Positions 15,374 through 57,066 of a stretch of 64,000 bases of DNA are shown here, piece after piece; within the stretch, counting starts at the first letter, position 1; each line of letters starts with the position of its first letter. A program made the translations under genes and the position numbers. Below the pieces are notes generated by a model that made no database searches, was not told the DNA's origin, and saw only the letters and a program-made list of their open reading frames with translations. Origin of the DNA: Sandaracinaceae bacterium (GTDB lineage: Bacteria; Myxococcota_A; Polyangia; Polyangiales; JAFGIB01); NCBI GenBank assembly GCA_017881055.1, contig JADGRF010000034.1, forward strand, positions 23,049-87,048. The letters run 5' to 3'.

Positions 15374-15389
15374 AGAGAGAGAGAAAGCC

Positions 15390-16127
15390 ATGCGCGCGGT
15401 CTTGATGCTCCACAGCATCGATGCCTCGGGCTCGGTGCTCTCGATGACGCAGAGCGAGTTGCGCTCGCTCGTGCAGGCCGTGCGTCGCTCGGGGCACGAG
15501 CTGCTGCCGCTCACCCAGCTACTCGACGACGACTCGCAGAAGCGCGCGGTCGCGCTGACGTTCGACGACGGAATGCGCACGCTCGTCACCGACGCTGCGC
15601 CCGTACTGCGCGAGCTCGGCGTGCCCGCAACGCTGTTTCTGACGACCGGCTACGTGGGCAAAGACAACGGCTGGCCGAGCCAACCGCCGCTTGCCCCGCG
15701 CTTGCCGATCATGGGCTGGGATGAGCTCGAGACGCTGAAGCAGAGCGGCTGGGACATCCAAGCGCACACGGTCACGCACCCCGACCTGCGCACGCAGAGC
15801 GACGATGCGGCGCTGCACGAGCTGACCGAGCCCGTCGAGACGATCGCTCGACGCCTCGGGCACAAGCCCAGCTTGCTCGCGTATCCGTACGGCTACTTCG
15901 ATCGACGGATCGAAGCGCTCACGTCACGGGTCTACGGGCGCGCGCTCTCGACGCGCATGGCCCTGCTCGACGGCGACACGCGCGGCCCGCTCGCCGTGCC
16001 GCGGCTCGACACGTATTACTTCCGAAGCGAGGCCGTGCACCGGCACTTCGGCAGCAAGCGCTTTCGCGCGTACCTCGAAGCACGCGCGCTGTTGCGCCGC
16101 GCGCGCAAGCACCCCGGCGAATGCTAA
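15390..16127 (+). CDS. Polysaccharide deacetylase (CE4)
   Basis: AVALTFDDG, HTVTHPDL, LLAYPYGYFD. Confidence 0.92.
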   Translation: MRAVLMLHSIDASGSVLSMTQSELRSLVQAVRRSGHELLPLTQLLDDDSQKRAVALTFDDGMRTLVTDAAPVLRELGVPATLFLTTGYVGKDNGWPSQPPLAPRLPIMGWDELETLKQSGWDIQAHTVTHPDLRTQSDDAALHELTEPVETIARRLGHKPSLLAYPYGYFDRRIEALTSRVYGRALSTRMALLDGDTRGPLAVPRLDTYYFRSEAVHRHFGSKRFRAYLEARALLRRARKHPGEC

Positions 16128-16150
16128 CAGAACGGGCATTGAGATCGGCT

Positions 16151-17092
16151 CTACGCGTTGTGACGCTCGCGGAAGAACGCGACCGTCTTGCGGATTCCAT
16201 CTGACAGCGTAGTCGCCGCACCGAGCGGCGCGGGGCTGCCCGGATCGAGCACCGAGCGCTCGACGTCGCCTTCGCGGCGCGGCCCGTGCTTGATCACGGC
16301 GGCCATGCCGGCGGCGCTCTCCATCATGCGCGCTAGCTCCATGGTGGTGGTGGCTACGCCGGTGCAGACGTTGATCGGGCTCGAGGCGAGCTTGCCTTCG
16401 ATCGCGAGTAGGTTCGCTTTGACCACGTCCGCCACGTACACGTAGTCGCGCACGCAGCCGTCGTCACCGGTTTGCTTGCGCGCGTTGATCTGAATCGCTT
16501 CGCCCTTGAGCAAGCGCTGCGCGAAGATCGCGACCACGCCGGCTTCGCCATGCGGATCCTGGCGCGGTCCGTACACGTTCGCGTAGCGCAGCACGGTGTA
16601 CGCCAGCTTGTGTTCGCTCTTGTACGCGTTCAAGTAGTTCTCGACGGCGAACTTCGAGCACGCGTACGGGCTGAGCGGATTGGGCGGCGTCGCGATGCTG
16701 GCGCGTGTGCCGTCGGGAACGTCGCCGTAGATCGCGCCGCCCGTGCTGGCGAACACGATCTTTTGCACGCGCTGCTGCACGCACTCGTTGAGGATGTTGA
16801 GGCTGCCGACCACGTTGATCTCGGCATCGCGCACCGGCTCGCGCGCGCTCACCGAGACGCTGGTCTGCGCCGCTTGATGCGTCACGACCTCGGGGCGGAA
16901 CTCGCCGAACACACGCGCCACGAAGACAGCATCGCGAATGTCCCCTTGCGCGAAGGTCGCGCGCGCCGGGACGTTCTCGCGTCGTCCGGTGCTGAGATCG
17001 TCGAGCACGAGCACTTCGTGCGACGCCGCCAGGAGCGCGTCGGCCACGTGTGAACCAATGAACCCCGCACCGCCAGTGACTAGAACTCGCAT
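16151..17092 (-). CDS. NAD-dependent epimerase/dehydratase (GalE-like)
   Basis: [35 protein letters not shown]. Confidence 0.92.
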   Translation of the reverse strand: MRVLVTGGAGFIGSHVADALLAASHEVLVLDDLSTGRRENVPARATFAQGDIRDAVFVARVFGEFRPEVVTHQAAQTSVSVSAREPVRDAEINVVGSLNILNECVQQRVQKIVFASTGGAIYGDVPDGTRASIATPPNPLSPYACSKFAVENYLNAYKSEHKLAYTVLRYANVYGPRQDPHGEAGVVAIFAQRLLKGEAIQINARKQTGDDGCVRDYVYVADVVKANLLAIEGKLASSPINVCTGVATTTMELARMMESAAGMAAVIKHGPRREGDVERSVLDPGSPAPLGAATTLSDGIRKTVAFFRERHNA

Positions 17093-17161
17093 GCCGGAGA
17101 CTTTACCACAGGGGCCTGTTTTCAAGCGATACGACCCGGCCGAGTGGCCCGGTCACGAAGA

Positions 17162-17980
17162 TCATGGGCGGTCACGGATGCGCCGGCCGGCCGCGTGGGC
17201 GAACAGCCGAAACACGAACGGAAGGTCGTTCAGCAGGTAGCGCCGCGCGAGCCGACGCGGCTCCTGCGAGAGGCGGTGCGTCCACTCGAGGCCCGTGCGC
17301 CGCATCCACGCCGGTGCGCGCGCGACGCCGCCGGAAACGAAGCTGAACGAGATGCCGACGCCCACCATCCAGGCGGCGGGGAAGTCCGCACGCAGCGCCG
17401 CGATCAGGTGTTCTTGCTTGGGCGAGCCGAGACCGACGAGCACGAGATCAGGACGGGTGCGGGTCAGCTCGGCGCGAATCTCGGCGAGCTCGGCAGCGGT
17501 GGCGGGCGTGTGAACACGGGGGGAAGAGCAGCCCGCGATGCGTAGCCCCGGAGACCGCTCGCACAGCACGCTCGCGGCGCCCTCGGCGGCGCCCAACTCG
17601 CCGCCGAGCAAGTAGAGCGAGCGGCCTTCGCGCGCGGCACGTTCGGCGAAGCGGTAGATCAAAGCCGAGCCCGCTACGCGCTCCGGCAGCGGCGAGCCGA
17701 GCACTTGCGACGCCCACACTAGAGGCATGCCGTCGGCGACGATCACGTCGGCGTCGGCGTAAAGCGTGCGTAGCGCGGGATCGTTGGCGTAGCGATGCAA
17801 GTGGTCGAGGTTGGCGGTGACGAGCCAGCCACCGCGCGCATGACTCAGCTCTCCGAACATGTGATCGAGCAGCGCGTTTTCGTCGACGTGCGCGAGCGGC
17901 ATGCCGAAGAGCGAGAGTGTGGGAAGCGCGTGCGTCATGATCTCGGAGGTGTTGCGCACCGACTCACGGAGCGCGCTCAT
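17162..17980 (-). CDS. WecG/TagA/CpsF family glycosyltransferase
   Basis: LVTANLDHLHRYANDPALRTLYADADVIVADGMPLVWAS; VLVGLGSPKQEHLIA. Confidence 0.92.
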   Translation of the reverse strand: MSALRESVRNTSEIMTHALPTLSLFGMPLAHVDENALLDHMFGELSHARGGWLVTANLDHLHRYANDPALRTLYADADVIVADGMPLVWASQVLGSPLPERVAGSALIYRFAERAAREGRSLYLLGGELGAAEGAASVLCERSPGLRIAGCSSPRVHTPATAAELAEIRAELTRTRPDLVLVGLGSPKQEHLIAALRADFPAAWMVGVGISFSFVSGGVARAPAWMRRTGLEWTHRLSQEPRRLARRYLLNDLPFVFRLFAHAAGRRIRDRP

Positions 17981-19175
17981 CGTTGCCACCGCGGTCGGTG
18001 CGCTCCCAGCGCGCATGGCGACCCCGCGTGAGGAAGCTGAAGTATAGCGGCAGCTTCCACAGCACGTAGCGCGGAATGGCAAGTAACTGACGCGCGCTCA
18101 CGACCTCGCGTCCGTACGCGAGCCAGGCCGACAGCACACCCGACACCATGAACACGACGCACAACGCTGCGAGCTGCGCGGGCAGCCAGGACGCACCGAG
18201 CCACGGCACGATCAGCGCGAAGCCGAGCGTGGCCAGCACGAGCATGAGCAAGAGCGAGAGCGGCGGCACCGCGAGATCCAGCGCCAGCGCGACCAAGCCG
18301 AAACGCGCCTGCGTGAGGCCCTGCAGGAACAAGCTCGGGCCGTGCTCGAGCAGCGTGGCGAGATGACCGTGCTCCCAGCGCCGACGCTGCGTGTGCGCCG
18401 CTTCGGCGCGCTCCGGCAGCTCGCTCGTCACGTAGGCATCGGGACACAAGAGCGGCGCGTGGCCGAGGCGCGCGAGATCGAGACCCATCACCATGTCCTC
18501 GACCAGATGCCCTTCCGTCGGCGGCGCCATGCGAATCACGCGCCACGGAAACGCCATGCCGGTACCCGTGAGCAGGCATGGCAGCCCGAGCGCATGAAGT
18601 CCTCGTGGTCGCGCACGATTCTTCACCACGAACGCCAGCGCCGAGACGACCGACAGCCCCTTCGGATCCTTCGGCGCATCGAGCACGTAGTCCGCTTGCA
18701 CCGGCCGATCAGTGCGCGCCGCCAAGCGTGCGATCCGATCGATCGAACCCGCTGCCACGGTGCAGTCCGCATCCACGATCACGACGACATCCGGCGGATC
18801 TGCCGCGAGATGATCGAGCCCAAACACGAGCGCATAGCCCTTGCCGCGCCGCTCGAAATCGCTGCGCTCGATCGCCGTCGCCCCCGACGCACGCGCAATC
18901 GCCGCCGTGTCGTCGCTGCAGTTGTCCGCGACGACGAGCAACACATCGTTCGCCTTCAGCTGCGCCCGTAACCCCGAAAGCGTGCGAGCAATGATCCCCC
19001 GCTCATCATGCGCCGGCACAAGGATCGCAACCCGCGGCGCCCCCCCGCCATCATCCCCGCCCCGCGTCCCCCCCCGCGCCAGCGCCCCAATCAAACACTC
19101 CGCAAAGAACACAAAACAAGGCACGAGCAACCCGCCCACCCAAACCAACAACCCAAGCTCAAGAACAAAACCCAT
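17964..19175 (-). CDS. GT2 glycosyltransferase, polytopic (cellulose-synthase-like)
   Basis: VAILVPAHDERGIIARTLSGL, VIVDADCTVA, QRRRWEHGH; start ATG at 19175. Confidence 0.9.
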   Translation of the reverse strand: MGFVLELGLLVWVGGLLVPCFVFFAECLIGALARGGTRGGDDGGGAPRVAILVPAHDERGIIARTLSGLRAQLKANDVLLVVADNCSDDTAAIARASGATAIERSDFERRGKGYALVFGLDHLAADPPDVVVIVDADCTVAAGSIDRIARLAARTDRPVQADYVLDAPKDPKGLSVVSALAFVVKNRARPRGLHALGLPCLLTGTGMAFPWRVIRMAPPTEGHLVEDMVMGLDLARLGHAPLLCPDAYVTSELPERAEAAHTQRRRWEHGHLATLLEHGPSLFLQGLTQARFGLVALALDLAVPPLSLLLMLVLATLGFALIVPWLGASWLPAQLAALCVVFMVSGVLSAWLAYGREVVSARQLLAIPRYVLWKLPLYFSFLTRGRHARWERTDRGGNDERAP

Positions 19176-29799: not shown

Positions 29800-32700
29800 T
29801 CAGGGCGAGGAGTCTCGCAGACCGTTGTCGCTCGCGCCAGCCGGGGGCTCGGACAGGGATCGGCTGGCAGCCTGCTCGAGCCGCTGCGCGTAGTCGGCCG
29901 CACCCGCGGTCTGCGACAGCCGCACCGCGCTCATGTAGTGCGTGAGCCCGTGCTCCCGATCGCCCATGGCGGAGACGGACAGGCGCGCGTGCAGCGCGGC
30001 GGCGCGTGCCTGCAAGAACGGCAGACGAACCTCGGCGGCGAGCGTGTCCACCTCCTCTAGCACCGCGCGAGCTTCGACGGGCTCACCGGCATCGAGTAGC
30101 GTCTCGACCAAGAGCAACGAGAGCCGGAGTCGACGCGGGCCGTCGAACCCGGCCTGGCTCGCGAGGCGACCCGCTGCCCGCAGCGCCGAGACGGCTTCTT
30201 TCATGCTGTGCTCGGCGCGCCGCAGCTCCGCCAGTGTCAGCTGCACCTCGGCTTGTACGCCGAGCAGGTCGTCTTGATACGTGGCTTCGAGCGCCTGGCC
30301 CAGCAAGCGATACGCCTCGCGCGCACGACTGCGCTGCATCACGACGCGCGCGAGCTCGATCAAGATTTGCGCGCGCTGCAGCGCGGATTGACTCGTGTAC
30401 TCGAGCGCTTCACGCAGCACACCTTCAGCGCCCGTGATGTCCCCGCGCCGTGCCAGCACCGAGCCAAGACGCCGGCTCATGCTGGCGAGCGCGTCATCGA
30501 GCGACGTATCGCCTGACTCGAGCAGCTCTCGGCGACCGAGCTCGATGCCGCGCTGGTAGCCGAGCACGGCCGTGTCCAGGTCGCCGCGCGAAGTAGACAC
30601 ATCGCCCAGGCGCTCCAGCAGCACCAACGCCGAGAGCGCCTCGCCTGCGCCGTGCGCGTGGTGCGCTCTCACTTCGAGCGGCGCGTCCGTCTCCGAGGCG
30701 AGATCGAGCGCACGCAGATGCAATGCTTTGCGCGCCTCCGCCGGTGTGGAGGCTTCGATCAAGTCACGCACGAACGGATGAATGATCTGCAGCGAGCCAT
30801 CCGCCTCCACCACGAAGCCGCGTGCCAACAGCAGCGAAAGGCCGCTCATGTCGTCGCGCTCTGCCATGCGCTGCACGTTCTCTTTGGTGGCGCTGCGCCC
30901 GAGCACGGCAATCGTCTGCAAGAGGCGACGCGCGCTCACGTTGAGGCGCTGAATGCGCTGGGCAACCGCGTCCGCCAAGCGCGACGGCAGTGTGGCATTG
31001 CGCGCGCTGTCTCCGAGACCGAGGCCCAGGCCTTGCAGCTGCTCGATGTACAGCGGCGTGAGCAAGCGATCCTCGGGCTCGGGCTCGGCCATGTCCGAGA
31101 GGCTCCGACCGGCCATGAACGCCTTGGCTTCGCGCATCGTGAAACCGCGCAGCGTGATCACCGTGGTCTCGCGGGGCAGCGGGATGGGCTTGGCCTTGCC
31201 GCTGGCCGTGAGCAGAAACAGCGACGAGTCGGCCGCATAGCGTGGCAGCTCGGCAAGCGCACGTGGCGAGAGCCCGTCGCAGCGATGCAGGTCGTCGACC
31301 ATGAGCACGATGCGCTTGCCGGGAGCGTCCGCGGCAGCTCTACGCACGGCGAAACCCAGCGCACACGCGACCGACCCGATCTTCGATTCGCGGGGATCGC
31401 CGAGCACGCCCGACGGGAACAGCACTTCGCGGATACCCGCCGCTACCAGCGGCTGATTCATGGCCTCGCGATCGGCAAGCGCCGCGAGCGCGTCGTCCTC
31501 GAGCGTGAGCAGACCGCGCAGCAACATACGAATCGGGTGGTACGCCACGGGCGCGCCACTCTCGTGCGGGCCGGCGCCGATCACGATGTCGCCGGCGCGA
31601 TCCGCACGCTCGGCGATCTCGGCGAGCAAGCGCGTACGCCCTACGCCGGACTCGCCGATCACGTTCACGGACACGACGCGGCCCTGTGCGGACTTGCGCT
31701 CGCTCTCGATCGCCTCCAGCTCGCGCTGCCGGCCCACCAAGAACGGGTGCTGCGTGCGCGCGATCGTCATGCGCGGCGGCAGCGACATGCGCGCGCTGGG
31801 CGGGGTGACGTGAACCGCGAGCGGCGCGCCGCACTCCGCGCAGAAGCGCTTGGGGAACGGCGAGCGCGCACCGCACGCGGCGCACGTGACCTCGGCGCTG
31901 CGCGGCGACAGCTCGCGACCGACGCGCCGCAGCTCGCTCGCCATTTCGTCGGCACGCGCGTAGCGATCCGCCGTGCTCTTCGCGAGGGCGTGCATCACCA
32001 CATCCACCAAGAGCGCTGGAATGTCGCGCTCCGGTGCGACCTCACGCGGGTCGGGCACGGGCTCCTGAATGTGCTTGAGCACGACGTTGGTCGGCGTGTC
32101 CGCCATGAACGGCAGACGCTCGGTCAAGAGCTCATAGAGCATCACGCCCACCGAATAGATATCGCCGCGCGCGTCGACCTCTTCGCCACGTCCCTGCTCG
32201 GGCGACATGTAGTCGGGCGTGCCGCACACCAGGCCCGGCAGCGTGATCGACCTCGCGCCCTGCGTCCCGCGCAGCAACTTGGCGAGCCCGAAGTCGACCA
32301 CCTTCACCAAGTCACCGCCCGCTTTCAGGCGCTCGATGATCACGTTCTCGGGCTTCAGATCGCGATGCACGACATCGAGCGCGTGCGCTTCGCCGAGCGC
32401 ATCGAGCACCGCGCTCACGATGTCGCAGATGCGAGGCAACGGCAGCGGGCCGTCTTCACGCATCATGCGCGCGAGATCCTTGCCCTGCAGGAACTCCATG
32501 ACGAGATAGAGGATCCCGTCGTCGGTGCGACCGAAGTCGATGATGCTGACGCTGTTCGGGTGATTGAGCCGGCTGGCCGCGCGCGCCTCCGTGTAGAAGC
32601 GCGCGACCGACTGCTCGTCCGAGAGCAGGTGCGGGTGGATGACCTTGATCGCGACCGTGCGGCCCAGCATGCTCTGCTCGGCTCGATACACGCGACCCAT

Positions 32701-32865
32701 GCCGCCGACACCAACCAGATCGAGCATTACGTACGAGCCACCGATCGTGCGACCGATCAACGGATCGTTGCTCGCGGCCTCGTTCGCTTTCGCGCCAGCC
32801 CCGCACGACGGACAGAAACGATCCACCTCGCCGTGGGGCGTCCCGCACTGATGGCACAGGATCAC
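29800..32865 (-). CDS. Ser/Thr protein kinase fused to AAA/NTPase and TPR-like repeats, with two zinc ribbons
   Basis: CHQCGTPHGEVDRFCPSCG; GVGGMGRVYRAEQ, HRDLKPENV, VDFGLAKL; second ribbon CAACGARSPFPKRFCAECG; degenerate Walker A GESGVGRTRLL. Confidence 0.92.
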   Translation of the reverse strand: MILCHQCGTPHGEVDRFCPSCGAGAKANEAASNDPLIGRTIGGSYVMLDLVGVGGMGRVYRAEQSMLGRTVAIKVIHPHLLSDEQSVARFYTEARAASRLNHPNSVSIIDFGRTDDGILYLVMEFLQGKDLARMMREDGPLPLPRICDIVSAVLDALGEAHALDVVHRDLKPENVIIERLKAGGDLVKVVDFGLAKLLRGTQGARSITLPGLVCGTPDYMSPEQGRGEEVDARGDIYSVGVMLYELLTERLPFMADTPTNVVLKHIQEPVPDPREVAPERDIPALLVDVVMHALAKSTADRYARADEMASELRRVGRELSPRSAEVTCAACGARSPFPKRFCAECGAPLAVHVTPPSARMSLPPRMTIARTQHPFLVGRQRELEAIESERKSAQGRVVSVNVIGESGVGRTRLLAEIAERADRAGDIVIGAGPHESGAPVAYHPIRMLLRGLLTLEDDALAALADREAMNQPLVAAGIREVLFPSGVLGDPRESKIGSVACALGFAVRRAAADAPGKRIVLMVDDLHRCDGLSPRALAELPRYAADSSLFLLTASGKAKPIPLPRETTVITLRGFTMREAKAFMAGRSLSDMAEPEPEDRLLTPLYIEQLQGLGLGLGDSARNATLPSRLADAVAQRIQRLNVSARRLLQTIAVLGRSATKENVQRMAERDDMSGLSLLLARGFVVEADGSLQIIHPFVRDLIEASTPAEARKALHLRALDLASETDAPLEVRAHHAHGAGEALSALVLLERLGDVSTSRGDLDTAVLGYQRGIELGRRELLESGDTSLDDALASMSRRLGSVLARRGDITGAEGVLREALEYTSQSALQRAQILIELARVVMQRSRAREAYRLLGQALEATYQDDLLGVQAEVQLTLAELRRAEHSMKEAVSALRAAGRLASQAGFDGPRRLRLSLLLVETLLDAGEPVEARAVLEEVDTLAAEVRLPFLQARAAALHARLSVSAMGDREHGLTHYMSAVRLSQTAGAADYAQRLEQAASRSLSEPPAGASDNGLRDSSP

Positions 32866-36118: not shown

Positions 36119-37348
36119 ATGCGCCACGCCGCGATCGCGATTTCCGTCCTGTGTCTGGCCCCGACCGCCGTGTTTCCGGCCCAGGCGCAGCCGAAGCCGG
36201 CGCCGGCGCCGCAACGATACAGCGCGCACTTCTATCGCTTGGCGGCCGATCCCGGCAGCGTGCAAGCCTCGGCGCGGCTGCTGCAGGCGCTCACTCTCCT
36301 GCAGCAAGCGGCGCAGGTGCTGCCAACCGATTGGCGATCTCTGTGCGAGCGCACACTCGCGCTGCAACTGTCGCCGGAGCACGGAGACGAGGCGGCCCAG
36401 CGCGCGGGCAAGGAACAGGCGCTGCAGCTGGTCGCACGACAGGCCGAGGCGCGCCGCAGCATGATCGACGCCGCGCTTGCGACGCTCGACAGCGCGCTCG
36501 CGCTCGCGCCACAGAATGTCGATCTACTTTACGTGCGCGCGCGCGCACTGGCGGCGTGGGAGCAACCGGTTGCGCCGCCTCCGCGTGCTCGGTCCGGGCC
36601 CGTGGCCCCGCCTCGAGGCTGCGACGTGCAGCGACGCGACACCGAAGCCAGCGCTGCGCTCGAGCTCGTGATGCAGGTCGACCCGGGCTACGCCGCCAAC
36701 CAAGTCGCGTTCGAGCTCGGCATCGAGCGAACGCGCCTGCACGACTTCGCGGGCGCGGCCGAGGCGTACGCGCGCGCCATCGAGCTCACCTGGCGGGCGC
36801 ACGACGCAGCCATCAGCGAAGCGAACTTGGCCGAGGTCACGATGCTCGCGGGTGATCCGGCCGGCGCGCTTCCGCACTACCAGCAGGCGCTGGGCTTGTC
36901 CGGTGGACCGGGCGGGACGCGCGACTACGCGCTCGCACGCTTCGGGATCGCGGTGGCCGAGGATCGCCTGGGCGAGCACGAGAAAGCGCTGACGAGCGCG
37001 GCCCAGGCCACGGAGAGCGCCGGCCGCACGCTCTCGGCGCTCGAAGCAGACGGCGTGTTCTTCGAGCCAGCCTACGAACGGCACTACTACCTCGCGCTCG
37101 GCCACGAGTCGCTCGCGCAGCTGGCACCCGAAGCGCGTGCAGCACACCTGGCAGCCGCACGGCTGGAGTATCAGGCCTTCGTCACGGCCGCCCCGGAAAG
37201 CGACCCTTACCGGGAAGCGGCGCAGACAGACTTGGGGGCCATCGTGCGCGAGCTCGCAGCCCTACCTCACCCAGTCGCGCCGAAGCCAGATCGTCAGCTG
37301 GAACGACTCAAGCCACGACGGCAGTCGCCGTCCGGCGCTGCAAAATGA
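36119..37348 (+). CDS. Exported TPR-containing protein
   Basis: Signal peptide MRHAAIAISVLCLAPTAVFPAQA; repeated TPR-like helices (AYARAIELTW..., HYQQALGL...). Confidence 0.7.
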   Translation: MRHAAIAISVLCLAPTAVFPAQAQPKPAPAPQRYSAHFYRLAADPGSVQASARLLQALTLLQQAAQVLPTDWRSLCERTLALQLSPEHGDEAAQRAGKEQALQLVARQAEARRSMIDAALATLDSALALAPQNVDLLYVRARALAAWEQPVAPPPRARSGPVAPPRGCDVQRRDTEASAALELVMQVDPGYAANQVAFELGIERTRLHDFAGAAEAYARAIELTWRAHDAAISEANLAEVTMLAGDPAGALPHYQQALGLSGGPGGTRDYALARFGIAVAEDRLGEHEKALTSAAQATESAGRTLSALEADGVFFEPAYERHYYLALGHESLAQLAPEARAAHLAAARLEYQAFVTAAPESDPYREAAQTDLGAIVRELAALPHPVAPKPDRQLERLKPRRQSPSGAAK

Positions 37349-38522
37349 CCGCGGACGCATTGCCGTAGTAGCCCACGGCGAGCACCAGCACGTGCTCGAT
37401 GTGCTCGGGCCGCTTGCCCTGCACGACCGGGCCGATCTCGACGCCATCGAACCAGCTGAGCACGCAGGCCATCGCCAGGGCACCGGCGGCACCGAACGTC
37501 TCGCCGAACAACGCCTTCGGCGCGATCACGCACGGCCGCGCGCCCAGCACGGCTTCGATACCCGACAGCTCCGCGGCATCGAAATGCGGGATGCCGCTCG
37601 CCGCGCTCGCCACGACGTCGATGTCGGCCGCCGTCAGCTGCGCATCCGAGAGCGCCATGCGGATCGCGCGCTGCACCGCGAGCGGCGAGACGTGCACGAG
37701 TAGCGCCTGCGACTCCGGCGGCTCGAACGCATTGCCATAGCCCACGATGTCGGCGAGCACATGCGCACCGCGGCTCTTCGCGAACTCCTGCGTCTCGAGG
37801 CATAGGTACGCAGCCCCCTCGCCCAGGCGCATGCCCTGGCTTTCACGGCGACCCGGCGCGAACACGCGCTCGCCCTCCGCCAACACATCGAGCTTGCGGA
37901 ACGCCAAGTACAGCGGCTCGCTCAGCGATTCACCGCCGCCGACCAGAAACGCGTCAGCGCGCCCGTTGCGCAAATGAGTCTCGCTGCTGAGCACGGCGTC
38001 GAGCGAGCCGCAGTTGCCGTCGACCACGGTCACGTTCGGAGCGCGCAGGTCTTCCCAGATGCTCACGTAACCAGCCGCCGCGTTGATCACGGTGTTCGGA
38101 AAGCGGTTGGGATTCAGAAAGCGCGGGTCCTCGAGCTCGGAGACCTGCACCGCTTCGGTGATCGCTTCGAGCGAGCCGTACGCCGTCGCGGAGCACAGGC
38201 CAATGCGATGCGGCGAGAACTTGTGCACACCGTCCTGCTTGAGCCCGCTGTCCTCGAGCGCGAGCTTGGCCGCGACGATCAAGAGCTTGGTCAAACGATC
38301 GAAGTTACGCAGGCCCTTGTCGCCCAGGTAGTGCTTGGCGTCGAAGTCGAAGCACTCGGCCGCTGTCGGCTGCGGAATGATCTTCGGATCGAGGCACGAA
38401 GGATGATCGTGGAACACGTCGGGGCCGCCGCGCGAGTGCGCGACCAGCGCCCGCCGGAAGGCTTCGGCGCCAATGCCGATCGGGCTGACCAGCCCGTAGC
38501 CGGTGATCGCGTACGGGTTCAC
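37308..38522 (-). CDS. Beta-ketoacyl synthase-like, catalytic His residues replaced (CLF-like)
   Basis: KS fold motifs VVDGNCGSLDAVLSS, DIDVVASAASGIPHFDAAE, APKALFGETFGAAGALA; GTGA overlap with upstream KS. Confidence 0.88.
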   Translation of the reverse strand: MNPYAITGYGLVSPIGIGAEAFRRALVAHSRGGPDVFHDHPSCLDPKIIPQPTAAECFDFDAKHYLGDKGLRNFDRLTKLLIVAAKLALEDSGLKQDGVHKFSPHRIGLCSATAYGSLEAITEAVQVSELEDPRFLNPNRFPNTVINAAAGYVSIWEDLRAPNVTVVDGNCGSLDAVLSSETHLRNGRADAFLVGGGESLSEPLYLAFRKLDVLAEGERVFAPGRRESQGMRLGEGAAYLCLETQEFAKSRGAHVLADIVGYGNAFEPPESQALLVHVSPLAVQRAIRMALSDAQLTAADIDVVASAASGIPHFDAAELSGIEAVLGARPCVIAPKALFGETFGAAGALAMACVLSWFDGVEIGPVVQGKRPEHIEHVLVLAVGYYGNASAVILQRRTATAVVA

Positions 38523-39805
38523 GGGGCGACGGCTGCAGCGGCCGCAGCCGCGTTGTCGGAGAGAGCCGCCCTGTAGGCCTCGTTCGGATCCGGCAAGCGA
38601 CCCGGCTTGGCAAACGCGACCACGGCATCGTACCCGCCGAACGCGAGCGCGTTGTTGAGCACGATGTCGGCGCGACCGCTGGCCGCGCGGTTCGCGACCA
38701 AGTTGAGATCGCACTCGGGGTCGGGCGTCTCGTAGCTCACGGTGGGCGGATAGATGCCCGTCTGCACGGTGAGCACGCAAGCCACGGCTTCGAGCGCGCT
38801 GGCCGCACCCATGCAGTGCCCGAGCATGCCCTTCATGCTGCTGACCGCGACCGGACGCGAGCCGAACACCTCGCGGATCACGAGCGCCTCGACCTTGTCG
38901 TTGGCGTGCGTGCCGGTGCCGTGCGCGTTGATGAAGTCGATGTCGTCGGCGGTCACGCCGCTGCGCGCGATCGCTTCGCGCATGGCAACCAAGCTGCCGA
39001 TGCCCTCGGGATGCGGACGTGTGATGTGATGCGCGTCGCACGCCAGGCCCGTGCCGCCGATCTCGGCCATCGGCGTTGCGCCACGGCGCACCGCGTGCGC
39101 TTCCGACTCGAGCACGAGCACGCCCGCACCTTCACCGACGATCAAGCCCTTGCGGTTCTTGTCGAACGGCTGACAGCGCTCCGGCGCCACCGCACCCAAG
39201 CGCACGAAGCCCGCGAACTGCAGCTTCTGCAGGAGCTCGCTCGCACCGGTGATCACGACATCCGCGCGCCCTGCGCGGATCAAGTCCGCTGCAAACGCGA
39301 TCGAGTAGTTGCCAGCTGCACACGCGGCCGGCAGCGTCTGCACCATGCCGCGCGCACCGAACGCACGCGCCAAGTGGATGGGCAGGAGCGTGGAGCCGTA
39401 GAGCGGAAGCTTGTTCGGCAGCACGGCATCGTTGCCGCCGTGAATCCACGATTCCTCGAGCTCACCGATCACGTCGGCCTCACCCATCGTCGTGCCCAAG
39501 ATCACAGAGGTGCGATCACCCGCCAGGTGCTTCGGTAGCAGCCCCGCGTCGGTGACGGCCATGCGTGCTGCGGCGAGCGCGAACGCGGAGCAACGACCCA
39601 TGCGGCGCGCTTCGGCGGCCGTGAGAAAGTCGCGCGGGCTGAAGCCTTTGACCTCGGCGGCGACGGTGCGATCCAGCGTCTTGGTGTCGAAGCTCTCGAT
39701 CGTCGAGAAGCCCGAGCGCCCCTCGACGACGGCCTTCCAATACGCGTCGCGGCCAAACCCGAGTGAGCTGACGACGCCGAGACCCGTGACATAGACGCGT
39801 GACAT
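38519..39805 (-). CDS. Beta-ketoacyl-ACP synthase (FabF-like), complete catalytic triad
   Basis: PAACAAGNYSI (Cys), NAHGTGTHANDKVE (His), SMKGMLGHCMGAASALEA (Lys/His). Confidence 0.93.
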   Translation of the reverse strand: MSRVYVTGLGVVSSLGFGRDAYWKAVVEGRSGFSTIESFDTKTLDRTVAAEVKGFSPRDFLTAAEARRMGRCSAFALAAARMAVTDAGLLPKHLAGDRTSVILGTTMGEADVIGELEESWIHGGNDAVLPNKLPLYGSTLLPIHLARAFGARGMVQTLPAACAAGNYSIAFAADLIRAGRADVVITGASELLQKLQFAGFVRLGAVAPERCQPFDKNRKGLIVGEGAGVLVLESEAHAVRRGATPMAEIGGTGLACDAHHITRPHPEGIGSLVAMREAIARSGVTADDIDFINAHGTGTHANDKVEALVIREVFGSRPVAVSSMKGMLGHCMGAASALEAVACVLTVQTGIYPPTVSYETPDPECDLNLVANRAASGRADIVLNNALAFGGYDAVVAFAKPGRLPDPNEAYRAALSDNAAAAAAAVAP

Positions 39806-39814
39806 TCGTGCGAA

Positions 39815-39843
39815 GCTATAGCGTCCGCGATCCGCCACCGCAA
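39815..39843 (-). promoter_or_regulatory. Putative sigma70-like promoter for the KS operon
   Basis: Minus strand TTGCGG-N17-TATAGC; predicted start a few nt from ATG 39805. Confidence 0.4.
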
Positions 39844-39911
39844 GGTTGCGACACGCACACGACACGTGTTCCGGCCGGCCGACTGGCCTAATTTCCTCGG
39901 GGAATTGTCGC

Positions 39912-39941
39912 TTGACACGGTGTCGCTGCGGCCCGTAGATA
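39912..39941 (+). promoter_or_regulatory. Putative sigma70-like promoter for the FAAL operon
   Basis: TTGACA (6/6) -N18- TAGATA; predicted start at about the ATG (39950). Confidence 0.45.
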
Positions 39942-39949
39942 GGCGCGCC

Positions 39950-41647
39950 ATGGCGCCCTCCGACCAGGACACGCTCGTGTCTTGCCTAGCGAATCTACCG
40001 CGCGGCGAAGCGCGTGGCTTTCGTTTCCGCAATCTTCTTGGCGGCGAGGACGGCAACGAGCGCTACTTCCCGTTTCAAGAGCTGGAGCGCGAAGCCAAGG
40101 TGCGCGCGGCCCGCCTGCACGCTCTCGGGTTGCGCAAGGGCGATCGCATCGCGCTCGTGATCGCCGACCCGGCCGAGTTCGTGCTGAGCTTCCTGGGTGC
40201 CGCTGTTGGCGGCATCGTGCCGGTGCCGATCTACCCGCGCGCCAGCTTCAAGGCCAAGAACGCCTACGTCGAGACGGTCAGCCACATCGTGAAGGCGGCC
40301 GGCGCGAAGGTCTTGCTGCTCACGGAGTCCAGTAAGCCCGTGGTCGAAGAAGTGCTGCAGCACGACACGGGGCTCTCCGAGCTGGTCGTGCTGGAAGAGT
40401 GGCTCACGCGTCCGGTCGTGCCGACCACGCTGCCGACCATCGCGCCCGAAGACCTGTGCTTTCTGCAGTTCACCTCGGGCAGCACGTCGTTGCCCAAGGG
40501 CGTGATGGTCACGCATCGCAACCTCGTGGCGAATGCGCGCGCGTTTCTCGGTGAGCGCGGCATCGCTCGCACCGACGACGACGTCGCGGTGACGTGGCTT
40601 CCGCTCTATCACGACATGGGCTTGATCGGCTTCGTGCTCGGCACGCTGGTCTGCAACATCAACACCGTGCTCTTGCCGACCGAAGCGTTCGGGCGTCGTC
40701 CGAATGTGTGGATCGACTGCATGCACAAGTACGGCGGCACGATCACCTTCGCGCCGAACTTCGCCTACGGCCTCGCCACCAAGCGCGCGCGCGACAAAGA
40801 TCTCGAAGGCCTCGACCTCAGCAAGTGGCGCATCGCCGGCTGCGGCGCAGAGCCCATCAACCCCAAGGTGATGCGCGAATTCGCCGAGCGCTTCGCACGC
40901 TGCGGCTTCAACGCCAACGCGCTCATGCCCGCGTACGGCATGGCGGAAGCCACGCTCGCGATCACGTTCCACACGCGCGGCACACCGATCATCACCGATC
41001 GCGTGGATGCGGATCGTATGCAGCAGGGCAAAGCCGTGCCGACGGATGCTCCCGCGGAAGGCGTGGGTGGTGTGCTCGAGCTGATCAACTGCGGGCACCC
41101 GTTCCCCGGCCACGCGGTGAAGATCGTGAACGAGCTGGGTGAGACGCTCGCGGATCGCGAAGTCGGCGAGATCTGGGCGAACGGCGCCAGCATCACGGCC
41201 GGCTACTACGGCAACCCCGAAGCCACCGCAGCCACGTATACCGACGGTTGGCTGCACACCGGCGACCTCGGCTACATGGTGAACGGCGACGTCTACGTGT
41301 GCGGGCGCTTGAAGGATCTAATCATCATCCGCGGCGCGAACTTCTACCCGCAGGACATCGAGTGGGCCGTCGCCGAAGTCGAAGGCGTGCGGCGCGACAA
41401 CGTGGTCGCGTTCAGCGTGATGCGTGAGGGCGAAGAAACGCTGATCGTGTCCGCGGAAGGTAACTCGACCGACGCAGCCACACTGCGCAGGACCATCGCC
41501 ACCAAAGTCATGGAGACCACGGGCCTCGCCGTCGGCCACGTCGCGGTCGTGAAAGTCGGCTCACTGCCGAAGACCTCGAGCGGCAAGGTTCAACGCCGCC
41601 GCACCAAAGCGCTGTTCGAGAGCGGGCAGCTGGAAGAACACAGTTAA
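39950..41647 (+). CDS. Fatty acyl-AMP ligase (FAAL-type adenylating enzyme)
   Basis: FTSGSTSLPKGVMVTHRNL, WLPLYHDMGLIG, GRLKDLIIIRGANFYPQDIEWAV. Confidence 0.93.
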   Translation: MAPSDQDTLVSCLANLPRGEARGFRFRNLLGGEDGNERYFPFQELEREAKVRAARLHALGLRKGDRIALVIADPAEFVLSFLGAAVGGIVPVPIYPRASFKAKNAYVETVSHIVKAAGAKVLLLTESSKPVVEEVLQHDTGLSELVVLEEWLTRPVVPTTLPTIAPEDLCFLQFTSGSTSLPKGVMVTHRNLVANARAFLGERGIARTDDDVAVTWLPLYHDMGLIGFVLGTLVCNINTVLLPTEAFGRRPNVWIDCMHKYGGTITFAPNFAYGLATKRARDKDLEGLDLSKWRIAGCGAEPINPKVMREFAERFARCGFNANALMPAYGMAEATLAITFHTRGTPIITDRVDADRMQQGKAVPTDAPAEGVGGVLELINCGHPFPGHAVKIVNELGETLADREVGEIWANGASITAGYYGNPEATAATYTDGWLHTGDLGYMVNGDVYVCGRLKDLIIIRGANFYPQDIEWAVAEVEGVRRDNVVAFSVMREGEETLIVSAEGNSTDAATLRRTIATKVMETTGLAVGHVAVVKVGSLPKTSSGKVQRRRTKALFESGQLEEHS

Positions 41648-41722
41648 TCACCTTGAAGCTCGCACGTGGACGGAACGTCCGTTTGCGCGTATTAAGGGCC
41701 ACCGATAACCTTGGAGAACTCT

Positions 41723-41971
41723 ATGACCCGGGCTGAGCTGTTGCAGATTTTTCGGTCGACCGCCTCTGAAATTGCCGAAAAGGACCTGCAAAACGTGGAG
41801 GAAACCCGCGTGATCGCCGAGCTCGGCATCGACTCGCTCGAGCTGCTCGAAGTGATCGGCAGCCTGGAGCGCGATCTCAACATCCGCGTCCCGGACGACC
41901 AGCTCGTCGGCATCCAGACGGTGGGTCAGCTGATCTCGCTGGTGGCCGACAAGATGCCGATGAACGGTTGA
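41723..41971 (+). CDS. Acyl carrier protein (ACP1)
   Basis: ELGIDSLELLEVIGSLERDLNIRVPDDQL; phosphopantetheine Ser in GIDSLEL. Confidence 0.92.
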   Translation: MTRAELLQIFRSTASEIAEKDLQNVEETRVIAELGIDSLELLEVIGSLERDLNIRVPDDQLVGIQTVGQLISLVADKMPMNG

Positions 41972-41976
41972 TTCGG

Positions 41977-42216
41977 ATGGCCCTAAGCACCGAAGAGCTG
42001 CGCGAGAAGATCCGTGCCGTCGTGGCGGAGATCGCCGAAATCGACGAGGTCCCGGACGATGCCCCGTTCAAGGACCTCGGCATCGATTCCATGATGGCGA
42101 TCGAGATCGTTGCCGAGATCGAGCGCAGCTACGGCATCAAGATTCCCGAAGCCGAGCTCGAGAAGGTTCGCGATCTGAGCTCGGTCGTGGCGCTCGTGCA
42201 GTCGAAGCTCGGCTGA
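41977..42216 (+). CDS. Acyl carrier protein (ACP2)
   Basis: DLGIDSMMAIEIVAEIERSYGIKIPEAEL. Confidence 0.92.
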   Translation: MALSTEELREKIRAVVAEIAEIDEVPDDAPFKDLGIDSMMAIEIVAEIERSYGIKIPEAELEKVRDLSSVVALVQSKLG

Positions 42217-42231
42217 CGGGTCCGCCAGCGC

Positions 42232-42678
42232 ATGGCAGCTCTCGCACCGGTTCCGGGCGTCACGATCACGACGCATCGCCTGCGCGTGGCCTACGCCGAC
42301 ACCGATCAGGGCGGCGTCGTGCACCACGGCACGTACCTGCGCTACCTGGAGTGCGCTCGGGTCGAGCACATGCGCGAACGCGGGTTCGACTACCGAAGGC
42401 TCGAGCTGCAAGACCGCTTGGGCCTCCTCGTGGTCGAAGCCAACCTCCGCTACAAGCTGCCCGCCCGCTTCGACGACGAGCTCTCGCTGCGTACCTGGAT
42501 CGGCTTCGCCAACCGGGCAAAAATACGCTTCGACACGTTGATCATGCACGGCGACCACGTGCTCACGGAGGCGCAGCTGACGCTGGCCTGCGTGAATATG
42601 GTCAAGGCCAAGATCACCAGCATGCCGGCGAGCGTGCTCGCGCTGGCCGACGCCACCGTGGGCGCCTCCGTGCGCTGA
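42232..42678 (+). CDS. Hotdog thioesterase, YbgC/4-hydroxybenzoyl-CoA thioesterase-like
   Basis: LRVAYADTDQGGVVHHGTYLRYLE. Confidence 0.9.
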   Translation: MAALAPVPGVTITTHRLRVAYADTDQGGVVHHGTYLRYLECARVEHMRERGFDYRRLELQDRLGLLVVEANLRYKLPARFDDELSLRTWIGFANRAKIRFDTLIMHGDHVLTEAQLTLACVNMVKAKITSMPASVLALADATVGASVR

Positions 42679-42695
42679 CGCGCTACGCTACCGTG

Positions 42696-44420
42696 ATGCC
42701 GAGTCCGCCCGTCACGCCTTCCGCCATACCTACCGCAGCTCGGGTCGCCTGGGGCTTCCGCTTGGGCCTGGTCGTCTCGGTCGTGCTCGCGCTGGGCCTG
42801 TATGCGGTCTGGATGATCGGCCCGGGGCGCCCGGCCGATCTATTTCTCAGCTGGGCGGTGAACGCGTGCGCGTGCGCGTGGCTGTGGGCGCTCTGTGAAG
42901 TCGTCGCCGGTCGCGGCGGGAAGCTGCGAAACGCGCTCGCGACGCTCGTGTTCTACCCGGTGATCTACTTCCTGTTCGCCAGCTGCTTCGTGCACACGTT
43001 CTTCTTCGACGCGGCAGCCGAACGGCGCGTCTCGCTGCTCGATCTGAACCTCGGCGCGGTGGCATTCTTTTTCTTCCGCGTGCTGCCGCCGAAGGGCTGG
43101 GCGGCGCTGACGCTGCTGACCACGGCCATTCACGCAGGTGCGCAGCTGACGCGCCGGAATACGCGCAGCGCGTCGTCGCCGCAGTTCCTCGGAGCTCTGC
43201 TTGGATTCACGCTGCTCACGTCCACCGTGGCCGCAAACGCGGCCCGCATCCCCTCGCCGCTCGTCGACATCGCCCACGATTTCTGGGAGCTCGGCACGCT
43301 GCCGCGCATCGTGCCGGCCGCACGCGCTGCGTACCCGCTCGACACGCTCGACAAGAGCGCGGCGGCTCCCACTCTCCGCAGCACACCGTTCAAGAAGGTG
43401 CTGGTCTTCGTGATGGAGACCATGACGCAGCAGAAGCTGACTGCGGAAATCGCCGGGCTCTCGCCGAATTCGTTCTTGGTGCGCGAGCGTGCGCATCTTC
43501 ATCACTACACGCGCTACACCACGAACAACCAAGACAGCCGCACGGGCATGCTCGACATGCTCAGCTCGCGCTTGATCCCGTACGAGGCCTACACCGAAGC
43601 TGGCCGTGACCACTACGCGTTCCTGGCCGACAAGCCCTCGCTCGTGGATCGCTTTCACGATCTAGGCTTTCAAACGGCCTACGGGCTCTCACAAGTCGAT
43701 GTGGAGATCGTGGTTGGCGACATGCCGTGGACGAAGGTGCTGCATCTCGAAGAACAGCAGGTACGCAGCGATCCGCGCAACCTGTGCTTCGTGACGTTCC
43801 AGTTCGAGCACGGCTGTGAAGATCGCGCGCTCTTGCCGCAGGTGTTCGACTTCATCGACAGCAGCGAGCGCGCGTTCCTGTACCAGGAGTTCATCTGGGG
43901 CCACGCGATCGAATACAACCAAGCTTCAGGCAAGACCAACACGCAGTACTACTCGTCGTATCTCGACGCCGTCGTAGCGCACTTGAAAGAGAAGGGCCTG
44001 CTGGACGACACGTTGATCGTGCTCACCTCCGATCACGGCTTTCGCGACAAGGGCAAGCAGAGCGACCCTGATGTCTTTCACATTCCCTTGTTGTTCTTCT
44101 CGACGCGCTTCACGGAGCAGAGCGACGAGCGCCTGTTCTCGCATTCCGACCTGAAGGATCTATTGTTTCACGAACTAGGCGCGGACGACATGCTGGTCGA
44201 GGATCCGTTCGTGATGGTGGTCGGTCCGACCAGCTCCGCGATGACTGCCGTGCTGACGAAGAACGACGACTTCATGCTCTGGAAGCAGCGCGGCAACGCT
44301 CATTTTCTCGTGCGCTACCAGAACGTGCGCGCGCCGAGCACGCGCGTCGATCCCGCGCAGCCAGGCGCGTTCCTGAAGCTGTTCGACGACTATCGGCGTC
44401 ACTTCGACGCGTCGCGCTGA
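42696..44420 (+). CDS. Membrane-anchored sulfatase/LtaS-like alkaline-phosphatase-superfamily protein
   Basis: N-terminal TM helices; VLVFVMETMTQQ, TNNQDSRTGMLDML, TLIVLTSDHGFRDKG, VFHIPLLFF. Confidence 0.82.
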   Translation: MPSPPVTPSAIPTAARVAWGFRLGLVVSVVLALGLYAVWMIGPGRPADLFLSWAVNACACAWLWALCEVVAGRGGKLRNALATLVFYPVIYFLFASCFVHTFFFDAAAERRVSLLDLNLGAVAFFFFRVLPPKGWAALTLLTTAIHAGAQLTRRNTRSASSPQFLGALLGFTLLTSTVAANAARIPSPLVDIAHDFWELGTLPRIVPAARAAYPLDTLDKSAAAPTLRSTPFKKVLVFVMETMTQQKLTAEIAGLSPNSFLVRERAHLHHYTRYTTNNQDSRTGMLDMLSSRLIPYEAYTEAGRDHYAFLADKPSLVDRFHDLGFQTAYGLSQVDVEIVVGDMPWTKVLHLEEQQVRSDPRNLCFVTFQFEHGCEDRALLPQVFDFIDSSERAFLYQEFIWGHAIEYNQASGKTNTQYYSSYLDAVVAHLKEKGLLDDTLIVLTSDHGFRDKGKQSDPDVFHIPLLFFSTRFTEQSDERLFSHSDLKDLLFHELGADDMLVEDPFVMVVGPTSSAMTAVLTKNDDFMLWKQRGNAHFLVRYQNVRAPSTRVDPAQPGAFLKLFDDYRRHFDASR

Positions 44421-44563: not shown

Positions 44564-44641
44564 CTCGCCACGCTGGGCGTGGCTTTCAATTGCTCGCCAC
44601 GCTCGGCGTGGCTCTAGTTACTCGCCACGCTCGGCGTGGCT
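44564..44641. repeat. Three tandem palindromic hairpin repeats, ~28-29 bp spacing
   Basis: CTCGCCACGCTSGGCGTGGCT at 44564-44584, 44593-44613, 44621-44641; stem GCCACGC/GCGTGGC. Confidence 0.85.
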
Positions 44642-45474
44642 TCTATGTACCGCGCGTTGCGCGCCTGCCAGCGCCGGATCAGGGAGGAGTCGTCCTTGTC
44701 CCAGGGGTGGTAGCTCGGGCGGAAGTACGCGAAGAACGCGGGCGTCATGCGCGAGATCAGACCCTGACGGCCGAGCAGGTACGCAAGGCCGCGAGCCAAG
44801 TCGCGCGGGTCGAGGGGCGGGCCGTCCTGAGCGAGCAGGTCCCGCGTGTTGCGCAGCGTGATGGCGATCAAGAGCAGCCACGCTGCAGGCATCACCATCA
44901 CGCGCCGGACGTAGCCACCACCCAGCTTCTGATACAGGTCGAAGCACGTCGCCTTGTGTTCGGCTTCCTCGGCGGCATGCCACGCCCAGAGCGCGACCAC
45001 GTTCGGATCCGCGCCCTCGGTGACGTGCGGGTTGTCGAGATACTGTTCGGCGAAGCCAGCCGTGAGGTGCTCCAGCGCCACCGTGATCGCCAGCATGTCG
45101 AGCGGCTCGGCATGAGCGCGGACGCGATCGAGCACGGCGGAAAAGCGCGCCTGCAGGCGCATCACGTCGAAGCCCTGCTTCTCGACCATGCGGTTGAACT
45201 TCACGTGCTGTGCGGTGTGATGGCCTTCCTGACGGCAGAACTCCGCTATCTCCTCGCGCAGCTGCGGGTCGTCGGCGAGGTCGCGCAGCGCTCGGGCCGA
45301 GTCGATGAAGAACTTCTCGCCCGGGGGGAACGCGGTGGACAGCGCATCCCAGAAGAACGAGATGCTCGGGCTACCGGCGTGCCAGTGCTTGACGAAGCCC
45401 TTTTCCTCGAACTCGAAGCGCATGCGCCGGTAGGTCACGTGGACGCTTTTCGGTCGAGCTGACAGTTTCGACAT
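44614..45474 (-). CDS. Predicted metal-dependent hydrolase, PF10118/COG3687-like
   Basis: VTYRRMRFEFEEKGFVKHWHAGSPSISFFWDALSTAFPPGEKFFIDSAR, FCRQEGHHTAQH, WAWHAAEEAEHKATCFDLY. Confidence 0.82.
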   Translation of the reverse strand: MSKLSARPKSVHVTYRRMRFEFEEKGFVKHWHAGSPSISFFWDALSTAFPPGEKFFIDSARALRDLADDPQLREEIAEFCRQEGHHTAQHVKFNRMVEKQGFDVMRLQARFSAVLDRVRAHAEPLDMLAITVALEHLTAGFAEQYLDNPHVTEGADPNVVALWAWHAAEEAEHKATCFDLYQKLGGGYVRRVMVMPAAWLLLIAITLRNTRDLLAQDGPPLDPRDLARGLAYLLGRQGLISRMTPAFFAYFRPSYHPWDKDDSSLIRRWQARNARYIEATPSVASN

Positions 45475-45595
45475 CCAGCTACCTCCTTCGTCCAAGACTG
45501 GCCGAGGACGAGATCGAGCGCAAGCTGCGCCGCCTCGTGCACGTACGCACGCGGCGCACGCGATCAAGTCGAGTACGACGCCAGACGCGACCCGA

Positions 45596-46612
45596 TCAGA
45601 CGACTGCGATCGGCAGGCGCACGGTGCGCGGGGCCTTTTGCGCGTGCACGTGGCCCTGCTCGGGCTCTGCCGCGATCGGCGAGAGGCCGGCGTCGCGCAG
45701 CAGCTTCATGTCGTCGTCGCCGTCGGGGTTGGCAGTGGTCAACAGCTTGTCGCCGAAGAAGATCGAGTTCGCGCCGGCCAGAAAGCACAGCACCTGCGCC
45801 TCGCGGCTGAGTGCCGTCCGGCCCGCCGACAAGCGCACGCGCGCGTTCGGCATGAGGATGCGCGCCGTCGCGCACATGCGCACCAACTCGAACGGATCGA
45901 TCGGCGGCTGCGCTTCGAGCGGCGTACCCGGCACGGCCACGAGCGCGTTGACCGGCACGCTCTCCGGCTGCGGCGAGAAGCTCGCGAGCGTGAGCAGCAT
46001 GTTGCAGCGATCATCGATCGATTCGCCCATGCCGATGATCCCGCCGCAACACACACTGATGCCGGCATGGCTCACGTGCTCGAGCGTGCGCAGGCGATCG
46101 TCGTACGTGCGCGTGCTGATGATCTCGCTGTAGAACTCGCGCGACGTGTCCAGGTTGTGGTTGTACGCCGTGAGGCCGGCCTCTTTCAGCGCGAGCGCTT
46201 GCTCGCCGTCGAGCATGCCCAGCGTGACGCACGCCTCCATGCCCAGCGCGCGCACGCCGCGCACCATGCGCAGCACGCGCTCGAACTGCTCACCGCCCTT
46301 GGCGTTGCGCCAGGCCGCACCCATGCAGAAGCGCGTCGCGCCGCTGTCGCGGGCCGCGCGGGCTTGGCTCAGCACGTGGCGCTCGTCCAGCAACGGCTCG
46401 GCGTCCATGGTCTTGTCGTGACGCGAGCTCTGCGGGCAGTAGCCGCAGTCCTCGGGGCAGCCGCCGGTCTTGATCGAGAGCAACGTGCAGAGCTGCACGC
46501 TGTCGGGCTGCTGGTGTTCGCGATGCACGCCTTGGGCGCGGAACACGAGCTGCGTGAGGGGCAAATCGTGGATGGCACGCACGTCTTCGAGCGTCAGAAC
46601 GGTCATGTCCAC
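45596..46612 (-). CDS. bioB: Biotin synthase
   Basis: [16 protein letters not shown] radical-SAM CxxxCxx[33 protein letters not shown]. Confidence 0.96.
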
Positions 46613-55953: not shown

Positions 55954-57066
55954 CTACTTCGCGAACATCTGCAGCAGGAAGTAACCCACGATGGCGACGC
56001 CCACGCCGATCGCCAAACCCAGCATGAGCGTGGGGGTGTTCGACGTCGGGACGGTGGGCGGATCCGCCTCGTTCTGCACGACGCCGGTCTGCGCTCCAGC
56101 ACCGCCCGAGGCCGGCCGCTGCGATAGCGCTTTGGCCGCAGGCGAAGGCCGGTTCGACGCAGGCACCGCGCGCCGAGCCGCAGTATTGAGCAAGCTGTCC
56201 GCCAGGCAGCCCTTGAGCGCCTCGGCAAACTCGACCGCGCTGTCGTAGCGATTGTCAGGCTTCTTGGCGAGGGCCTTCTCGATGACCGCTTCGAGCTCCG
56301 GCGAGAACGTCTTGCCCGGGATCCTCTTGCTCAGCGGGATCGGCGGGTCCTTCACGTGCGCCTTCATGATGTCGAGCGGCGACTTGGCGTCGAACGGCAG
56401 CTTGCTCGTCAGCAGCTCGTACAGGATCAACGCCAGCGAATAGATGTCGCTGCGACGATCGATCGTCTCGCCCTGCGCTTGCTCGGGGCTCATGAACTCC
56501 GGCGTGCCGAAGACCATGCCCTGCTGCGTGAACATCATCGAGCCGCGACCCATCTGCTTCTCGCTCATCTTGGCGAGACCGAAGTCGAGCACCTTCGGAA
56601 AGTCCTTCGTGCCGCCCTGATTGGTGAGGAACACGTTCTCGGGCTTCAGATCGCGGTGCACGATGCCAGCCTTGTGCGCCTCTTCGAGCGCGCCGCAGAC
56701 CTGCACCATGATGTTGATCGCGCGATCGGCTTCCATCGGGCCGTTCTCGCGCACTTCGTGCGCCAGGTTGCGGCCCTCCAAGTAGTCCATCACGAAGTAC
56801 ACGGCGCCGTCGTCCAGCTCGCCGTATTTGTAGACGCGTGCGGTGTTCGGATGCGCGAGCTGGCTCATCGCGCGCGCTTCGCGCCGGAAGCGCGCCACCA
56901 AGTCGTCGCGCGTAGCGAAGCGCGAGTGCAGCACCTTGATCGCCACCATGCGATTCATGCTCGGCTGCTCGGCGCGATAGACCGAGCCCATGCCACCCGA
57001 ACCGATCCGGTCGACGATCACGTACTCACCGTTGTCGACCTGCTTCCCGATCAGCGGATCTGCCAC
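55954..57066 (-). CDS. Ser/Thr protein kinase, C-terminal TM anchor
   Basis: RIGSGGMGSVYRAEQ, VHRDLKPENVFL, LDFGLAKM, GTPEFMSPEQ; C-term TLMLGLAIGVGVAIVGYFLLQ. Confidence 0.94.
   Translation of the reverse strand: MADPLIGKQVDNGEYVIVDRIGSGGMGSVYRAEQPSMNRMVAIKVLHSRFATRDDLVARFRREARAMSQLAHPNTARVYKYGELDDGAVYFVMDYLEGRNLAHEVRENGPMEADRAINIMVQVCGALEEAHKAGIVHRDLKPENVFLTNQGGTKDFPKVLDFGLAKMSEKQMGRGSMMFTQQGMVFGTPEFMSPEQAQGETIDRRSDIYSLALILYELLTSKLPFDAKSPLDIMKAHVKDPPIPLSKRIPGKTFSPELEAVIEKALAKKPDNRYDSAVEFAEALKGCLADSLLNTAARRAVPASNRPSPAAKALSQRPASGGAGAQTGVVQNEADPPTVPTSNTPTLMLGLAIGVGVAIVGYFLLQMFAK

Follow-up and report, generated by a model that had tools for sequence, protein, structure and literature searches.

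Among bacterial systems described so far, two come closest to the locus reported here. In the first, the ligase AasR loads a dedicated acyl carrier protein (ACP), AcpR, and the resulting acyl-ACP is the substrate of serine palmitoyltransferase (SPT) (PMC9386255); the SPTs of the myxobacteria Sorangium, Myxococcus and Stigmatella are placed in the subgroup of the Bacteroidetes SPTs, and these myxobacteria have acpR and aasR in an operon apart from it (PMC9386255). In the second, SgaAB of Pseudomonas fluorescens MYb115, an iterative type I polyketide synthase (PKS) and an alpha-oxoamine synthase (AOS) with SPT activity yield sphinganines (PMC12134224). We analysed a stretch of 64,000 nt (the window) from Sandaracinaceae bacterium GCA_017881055.1 (contig JADGRF010000034.1, positions 23,049-87,048, forward strand), which carries a ketosynthase (KS) and a pseudo-KS resembling a chain length factor (CLF) on one strand and a fatty acyl-AMP ligase (FAAL), two ACPs and a thioesterase (TE) on the other. 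We consider it probable, with moderate confidence, that this module makes a sphingoid-like long-chain base together with an unlinked pyridoxal phosphate (PLP)-dependent AOS (AOS-I), to which it would be a dedicated type II acyl-chain supply; the base would serve as backbone of an unusual, sphingolipid-like lipid of the membrane. The genes of the locus are:

38519..39805, minus strand: FabF-like KS (KS alpha) with an intact Cys162-His295-His330 triad; nearest solved structure 9s5h chain B
37308..38522, minus strand: CLF-like pseudo-KS (KS beta) with a GTG start; nearest solved structure 9s5h chain C
39866..41647, plus strand: FAAL of the PRK09192/AasR-like group; alternative start ATG 39950
41711..41971, plus strand: ACP1, with LGIDSLELLEV; in many, not all, relatives
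41968..42216, plus strand: ACP2, with LGIDSMMAIEI; the most constant ACP
42232..42678, plus strand: YbgC/FadM-type hotdog thioesterase, TIGR00051 above cut-off; an optional member

These six open reading frames, with their positions, strands and families, agree with an earlier sequence-only reading of the same DNA, and its description of the KS pair as divergent from the FAAL, ACP and TE genes is true of their orientation.

Like the AasR-AcpR-SPT system (Caulobacter CC_1165/1163/1162; E. coli BL21 ECD_RS14830-14845, the latter locus read directly), the present one combines a FAAL-type ligase, a dedicated ACP and an AOS. The FAAL is 36% identical to E. coli BL21 AasR and AOS-I 34% identical to its E. 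coli counterpart; similarity to the E. coli proteins is marginal for ACP2 (E 0.001) and not detectable for ACP1. The two systems differ in that KS-CLF occurs only here and a linked CerR-like gene only there, and in that AOS-I falls outside the SPT clade. As in SgaAB, a dedicated polyketide or fatty-acyl machine would pass its chain to an AOS; SgaA, however, is one multidomain type I protein, whereas KS, CLF and ACPs are discrete here, the module holds no ketoreductase (KR), dehydratase (DH) or enoyl reductase (ER), and FAAL is optional. A KS with an impaired KS partner and free-standing ACPs is also found in type II PKSs and Gram-negative KS-CLF systems (actinorhodin, aryl polyene; 9s5h), but there is no cyclase, KR or DH in this module, an AOS is linked to it, and the CLF Cys is mostly kept. 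The role proposed for the usual myxobacterial SPT type, here AOS-II, is likewise to form long-chain bases; in contrast to the module's AOS-I, AOS-II has the motif GTFSKS, and it never co-occurs with AOS-I or CLF. The module is thus best described as resembling a hybrid of AasR-AcpR-SPT and SgaAB, yet it was not filed as a member of either, because AOS-I has neither the position nor the motif of an SPT and the chain-building proteins are not a type I PKS. The sequence-only reading had also recognised no standard polyunsaturated fatty acid, aryl polyene or resorcinol cluster, and we agree; unlike in the aryl polyene cluster, no dedicated KR and DH are conserved beside KS-CLF. In the open literature (subscription papers outside scope), our search found no paper naming serine palmitoyltransferase with chain length factor and none naming myxobacteria with oxoamine synthase; the gene set appears undescribed in the open literature searched.

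We compared the KS pair with its orthologs and with solved homologs. The KS scored as FabF-like (390 bits, under the 494-bit equivalog cut-off) and the pseudo-KS scored 172 bits. C162, H295 and H330 of the KS were invariant in 14/14 aligned orthologs, while both catalytic His of the pseudo-KS were replaced in all 14 aligned sequences. Its active-site Cys was retained in 10/14 and exchanged for other residues in 4/14, with Gln in none; Lys336 and Glu341 were invariant. The name pseudo-KS given by the sequence-only reading is right as to the two His, although most orthologs keep the Cys. Judged by its residues, this pattern is that of a chain-length-factor-like partner, except that in classical CLFs a Gln stands in the place of the Cys. 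KS and CLF formed separate clades in the tree, both apart from the genome's own FabF. Their genes overlap by 4 bp, and their nearest solved homologs are two chains (B and C) of the single PDB entry 9s5h, which would fit a putative KS-CLF heterodimer. The FAAL gene has a firm end at 41647 and an uncertain start (GTG 39866 or ATG 39950). Its product aligned unbroken to solved FAALs (3pbk, 66-585), and CoA ligases aligned to it in two pieces, one ending at ~345-370 and the next beginning at ~410; by these alignments the FAAL-specific insertion, which acyl-CoA ligases lack, is present in the window protein. Its best NCBIfam match was NF006624 (AasR group; 538 bits, cut-off 600), and a control search with the FAAL family was positive in Caulobacter and E. 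coli. ACP1 and ACP2 genes also overlap by 4 bp, and both products carry the LGIDS phosphopantetheine site.

A search with the pseudo-KS covered 144 genomes belonging to the class; counts rest on 116 genomes from the order. Two weak CLF matches (G205 and G233, E ~1e-61), probably another KS type, were excluded from the counts. A pseudo-KS profile detected orthologs in 64/116 genomes. The class-wide search showed a sharp break: orthologs within the order were 45-58% identical, and after these came only other KSs at ~27-36%. The KS-CLF pair was also seen in 74 named contigs, almost all from Myxococcota. When the genome collection was scanned, 79 loci were found, the great majority in Myxococcota drafts (Sandaracinaceae, Polyangiaceae, Labilithrix, Myxococcales), with a recurring design in which KS and CLF occupy one strand and ACPs, often FAAL and sometimes TE the opposite one. 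Among the 50 loci with >3 kb upstream of KS, that region held ACP2 in 47, FAAL in 29, TE in 13 and ACP1 in up to 39, the last count being affected by possible cross-matching of the ACP1 and ACP2 queries. These results indicate that the KS-CLF/FAAL/ACP genes are a conserved module and not a chance grouping. That they are ordinary duplicated fatty acid synthesis genes, neighbours by accident and without joint function, is scarcely credible: FAAL and TE are not always there and the KS resembles FabF, but the divergent architecture conserved across many genera, with its 4-bp overlaps, contradicts it, and so do the separate KS and CLF clades, which travel together. The conserved acyl-chain system proposed by the sequence-only reading is thereby supported, as a KS-CLF pair with ACPs and often FAAL. 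Its proposed check, co-conservation of the KS pair with FAAL and ACP genes, came out in part, since KS-CLF with ACP2 is nearly universal and FAAL is optional; TE release, which it had proposed, is unlikely to be a central step, with a TE beside so few loci and FAAL beside little more than half of them. No KR, DH, ER or acyltransferase was conserved in the cluster across the relatives' loci, as had been noted for the window. When neighbouring genes were clustered over ~80 loci, only lineage-specific context was found beyond the core (thiamine genes, IleS, a tetratricopeptide repeat (TPR) gene), and no tailoring, export or regulator gene was conserved with it.

The decisive partner was out of reach of the sequence-only reading of a single window. 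Directly 3' of CLF, nearly all relatives of the first set have a gene of ~409 aa for a PLP-dependent AOS, which is AOS-I; this near-obligatory partner lies outside the window and adjoins CLF in most relatives. It followed CLF on the same strand in 48/61 loci with enough downstream sequence, and the gap was <300 bp in 41/50 same-contig cases from genomes of the order. In one locus (L104) it overlaps CLF by a few bases, and in another (L064) it is nearby and divergent. The AOS-I of the source genome is on another contig (C46:4-1227) and is 73% identical to the AOS of G141. The TPR gene is the next gene 3' of CLF in the window; in G141 it stands behind AOS. AOS and CLF are still adjacent in G157, of the same family as the source genome; AOS-I stands apart from CLF in G153, G167, G148, G161 and G165, also of this family. 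In G000, G153 and G148, AOS-I lies at the end of a contig. An assembly accident was considered and rejected as the explanation, as AOS-I of G161 is internal to a 169-kb contig that is not the CLF contig, and CLF runs directly into the TPR gene in the window, L050, L051 and L117; the separation is real in these cases at least. The gene for the TPR protein (window 36119-37348) is a conserved neighbour of the module in 11 loci and is convergent there with the gene for CLF or AOS.

This separation bears on a second explanation, in which KS-CLF, FAAL and ACPs modify or elongate fatty acids (e.g. very long or unusual ones, for other lipids) and the AOS-I linkage is historical. AOS-I is away from KS-CLF in the window's genus and family (G000 and the five genomes above), and FAAL, ACPs and TE might suffice by themselves to load a fatty acid, extend it and release it. 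We regard it as quite improbable: AOS-I is retained even where unlinked, in 63/64 CLF genomes, and TE, on which release would depend, is an optional member. The sole CLF genome without AOS-I, G154, is 82% complete.

Co-occurrence over the 116 genomes favours the sphingoid-like base reading. AOS-I was present in 80 genomes, AOS-II in 27 and both in none, and none of the 64 CLF genomes had AOS-II. AOS-I without CLF was limited to genus g3 and one other genome (G221, 89% complete). Both g3 genomes that were read have AOS-I divergent from an ACP2-type ACP, and this persistence of AOS-I without CLF points to AOS-I plus ACP2 as the minimal pair. In these g3 loci (L140/L141), AOS-I and ACP2 adjoin a serine O-acetyltransferase-like protein and an HpnA-like short-chain dehydrogenase/reductase (SDR), and BioB-like and aminotransferase genes are found close by, as they are in the window. 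The window's BioB is at 45596-46612, and no other biotin genes were recognised beside it.

AOS-I scored under every NCBIfam cut-off and was about equally far (34-36%) from the E. coli proteins KBL, SPT and BioF and from the cysteate acyltransferase; its best-scoring solved match was Sphingobacterium SPT at 32%. The protein of C46 retains the PLP Lys, the ring-stacking His, Asn and DDAH. Apart from AOS-I, the genome gave a single AOS-superfamily match (C41:4168-5211), the likely BioF or KBL. In a tree with few references and long branches, AOS-II grouped with Sphingobacterium SPT, which fits the published placement of Sorangium SPT (PMC9386255), and the AOS-I clade was sister to the AOSs of L045, L147 and L151, two of which are in biosynthesis-like clusters. 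L045 (G019:C44:3001-23000, 7276-18565) lies in a genome that shares the class of the source genome and is outside its order; genes for KR, DH, KS, CLF, AOS, ACP, an FAD oxidoreductase, an acyl-CoA synthetase and an MMPL-like exporter follow one another there, which makes it a fuller, more distant relative with its own reductive enzymes. Because KR, DH, KS, CLF, AOS and ACP stand in one run there, L045 supports KS-CLF-AOS as a putative working unit. L147 (G174:C139:18001-37000, 8956-15700) has a second, different AOS (46% identity to AOS-I), accompanied by an ACP and a number of SDRs; its genome also carries the main module, and L147 is a separate AOS-containing biosynthesis-like cluster.

A secondary metabolite would be the product if KS-CLF made a short or polyunsaturated chain that AOS-I released as an aminoketone signal, pigment or defensive compound. 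The company kept by the sister AOSs of L045 and L147 argues for it, as does the absence of the SPT motif from AOS-I. We nevertheless think it unlikely, as the core has no conserved companion gene for tailoring, export or regulation, the strict exclusion between AOS-I and AOS-II speaks against it, and the wide distribution, including small genomes of ~3-4 Mb, is more like core lipid metabolism.

For the long-chain base pathway, we infer substrate, product and catalytic steps from the observed synteny and co-occurrence and from the analogy to AasR-AcpR-SPT and SgaAB. FAAL, whose family assignment is clear, would adenylate a free fatty acid and load it onto ACP1 or ACP2 without CoA; lineages without an adjacent FAAL may draw acyl groups from type II fatty acid synthesis (FAS II). 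KS-CLF, to judge from its residues and gene pairing, would act as a dimer that condenses acyl groups with malonyl-ACP, and CLF would determine the starter or the chain length. For keto reduction, dehydration and enoyl reduction the module would rely on housekeeping FAS II, because it encodes none of these enzymes; FabF, FabG and FabZ were found above family cut-offs elsewhere in the source genome. AOS-I would then offload acyl-ACP2 by PLP-dependent decarboxylative condensation with an amino acid, a step consistent with its co-occurrence and its AOS catalytic residues, and the presumed product is a long-chain alpha-aminoketone, a sphingoid-base-like precursor. TE, an optional member, may edit or release acyl chains. 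AOS-I would replace the usual myxobacterial SPT in most of the order: since AOS-I and AOS-II are mutually exclusive, AOS-I may fill the role of AOS-II/SPT, which the tree does not show. Our suggestion that most Polyangiales-type lineages swapped the usual SPT for a distinct AOS fed by its own KS-CLF, ACPs and optional FAAL is tentative.

Several observations weigh against a sphingoid-like product. AOS-I is not in the window and its link to the module is drawn from relatives, and the source genome is a draft, 94% complete and 4.3% contaminated. FAAL and TE are not universal (29/50 and 13/50 loci), and genus g3 has AOS-I but no KS-CLF. The exclusion between AOS-I and AOS-II partly tracks clades, so the 116 genomes amount to fewer than 116 independent tests; both types were found within family f2. 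AOS-I reads STFSKT where AOS-II has GTFSKS, and its clade is not that of SPT in the tree described above; for these two reasons its amino-acid substrate may not be serine. No clear CerR was found in the genome with an E. coli CerR-like query; the best match to that query was a generic SDR (30% identity, E 1.8e-15). The HpnA-like SDR adjoining AOS-I of g3 was rejected as the absent ketoreductase, with no ortholog in the source genome (best 27%).

If the long-chain base reading is true, the module would be a third bacterial acyl supply for sphingoid bases, the first two being SPT fed with acyl-CoA or acyl-ACP and SPT fed by a type I PKS. It would suggest lipids made by many uncultured Sandaracinaceae and Polyangiaceae, and CLF plus AOS-I would be a marker for producers that SPT-based surveys may miss.

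Genes around the module in the window were also considered as members. A membrane sulfatase-superfamily protein (42681-44420) and a PF10118 'predicted metal-dependent hydrolase' (44614-45567) lie next to it; both were rejected as not conserved with the core. Upstream kinase and response-regulator genes were rejected as lineage-specific context. The window encodes two Ser/Thr protein kinases (29800-32865 and 55954-57066), relatives of which occur near several related loci. Farther afield, distantly related KS-CLF pairs accompanied by KR or DH genes and by ACP genes occur in three Omnitrophota loci (L119, L121 and L125); the KSs and CLFs of these pairs belong to the two groups that also hold the 9s5h pair and those of the module.

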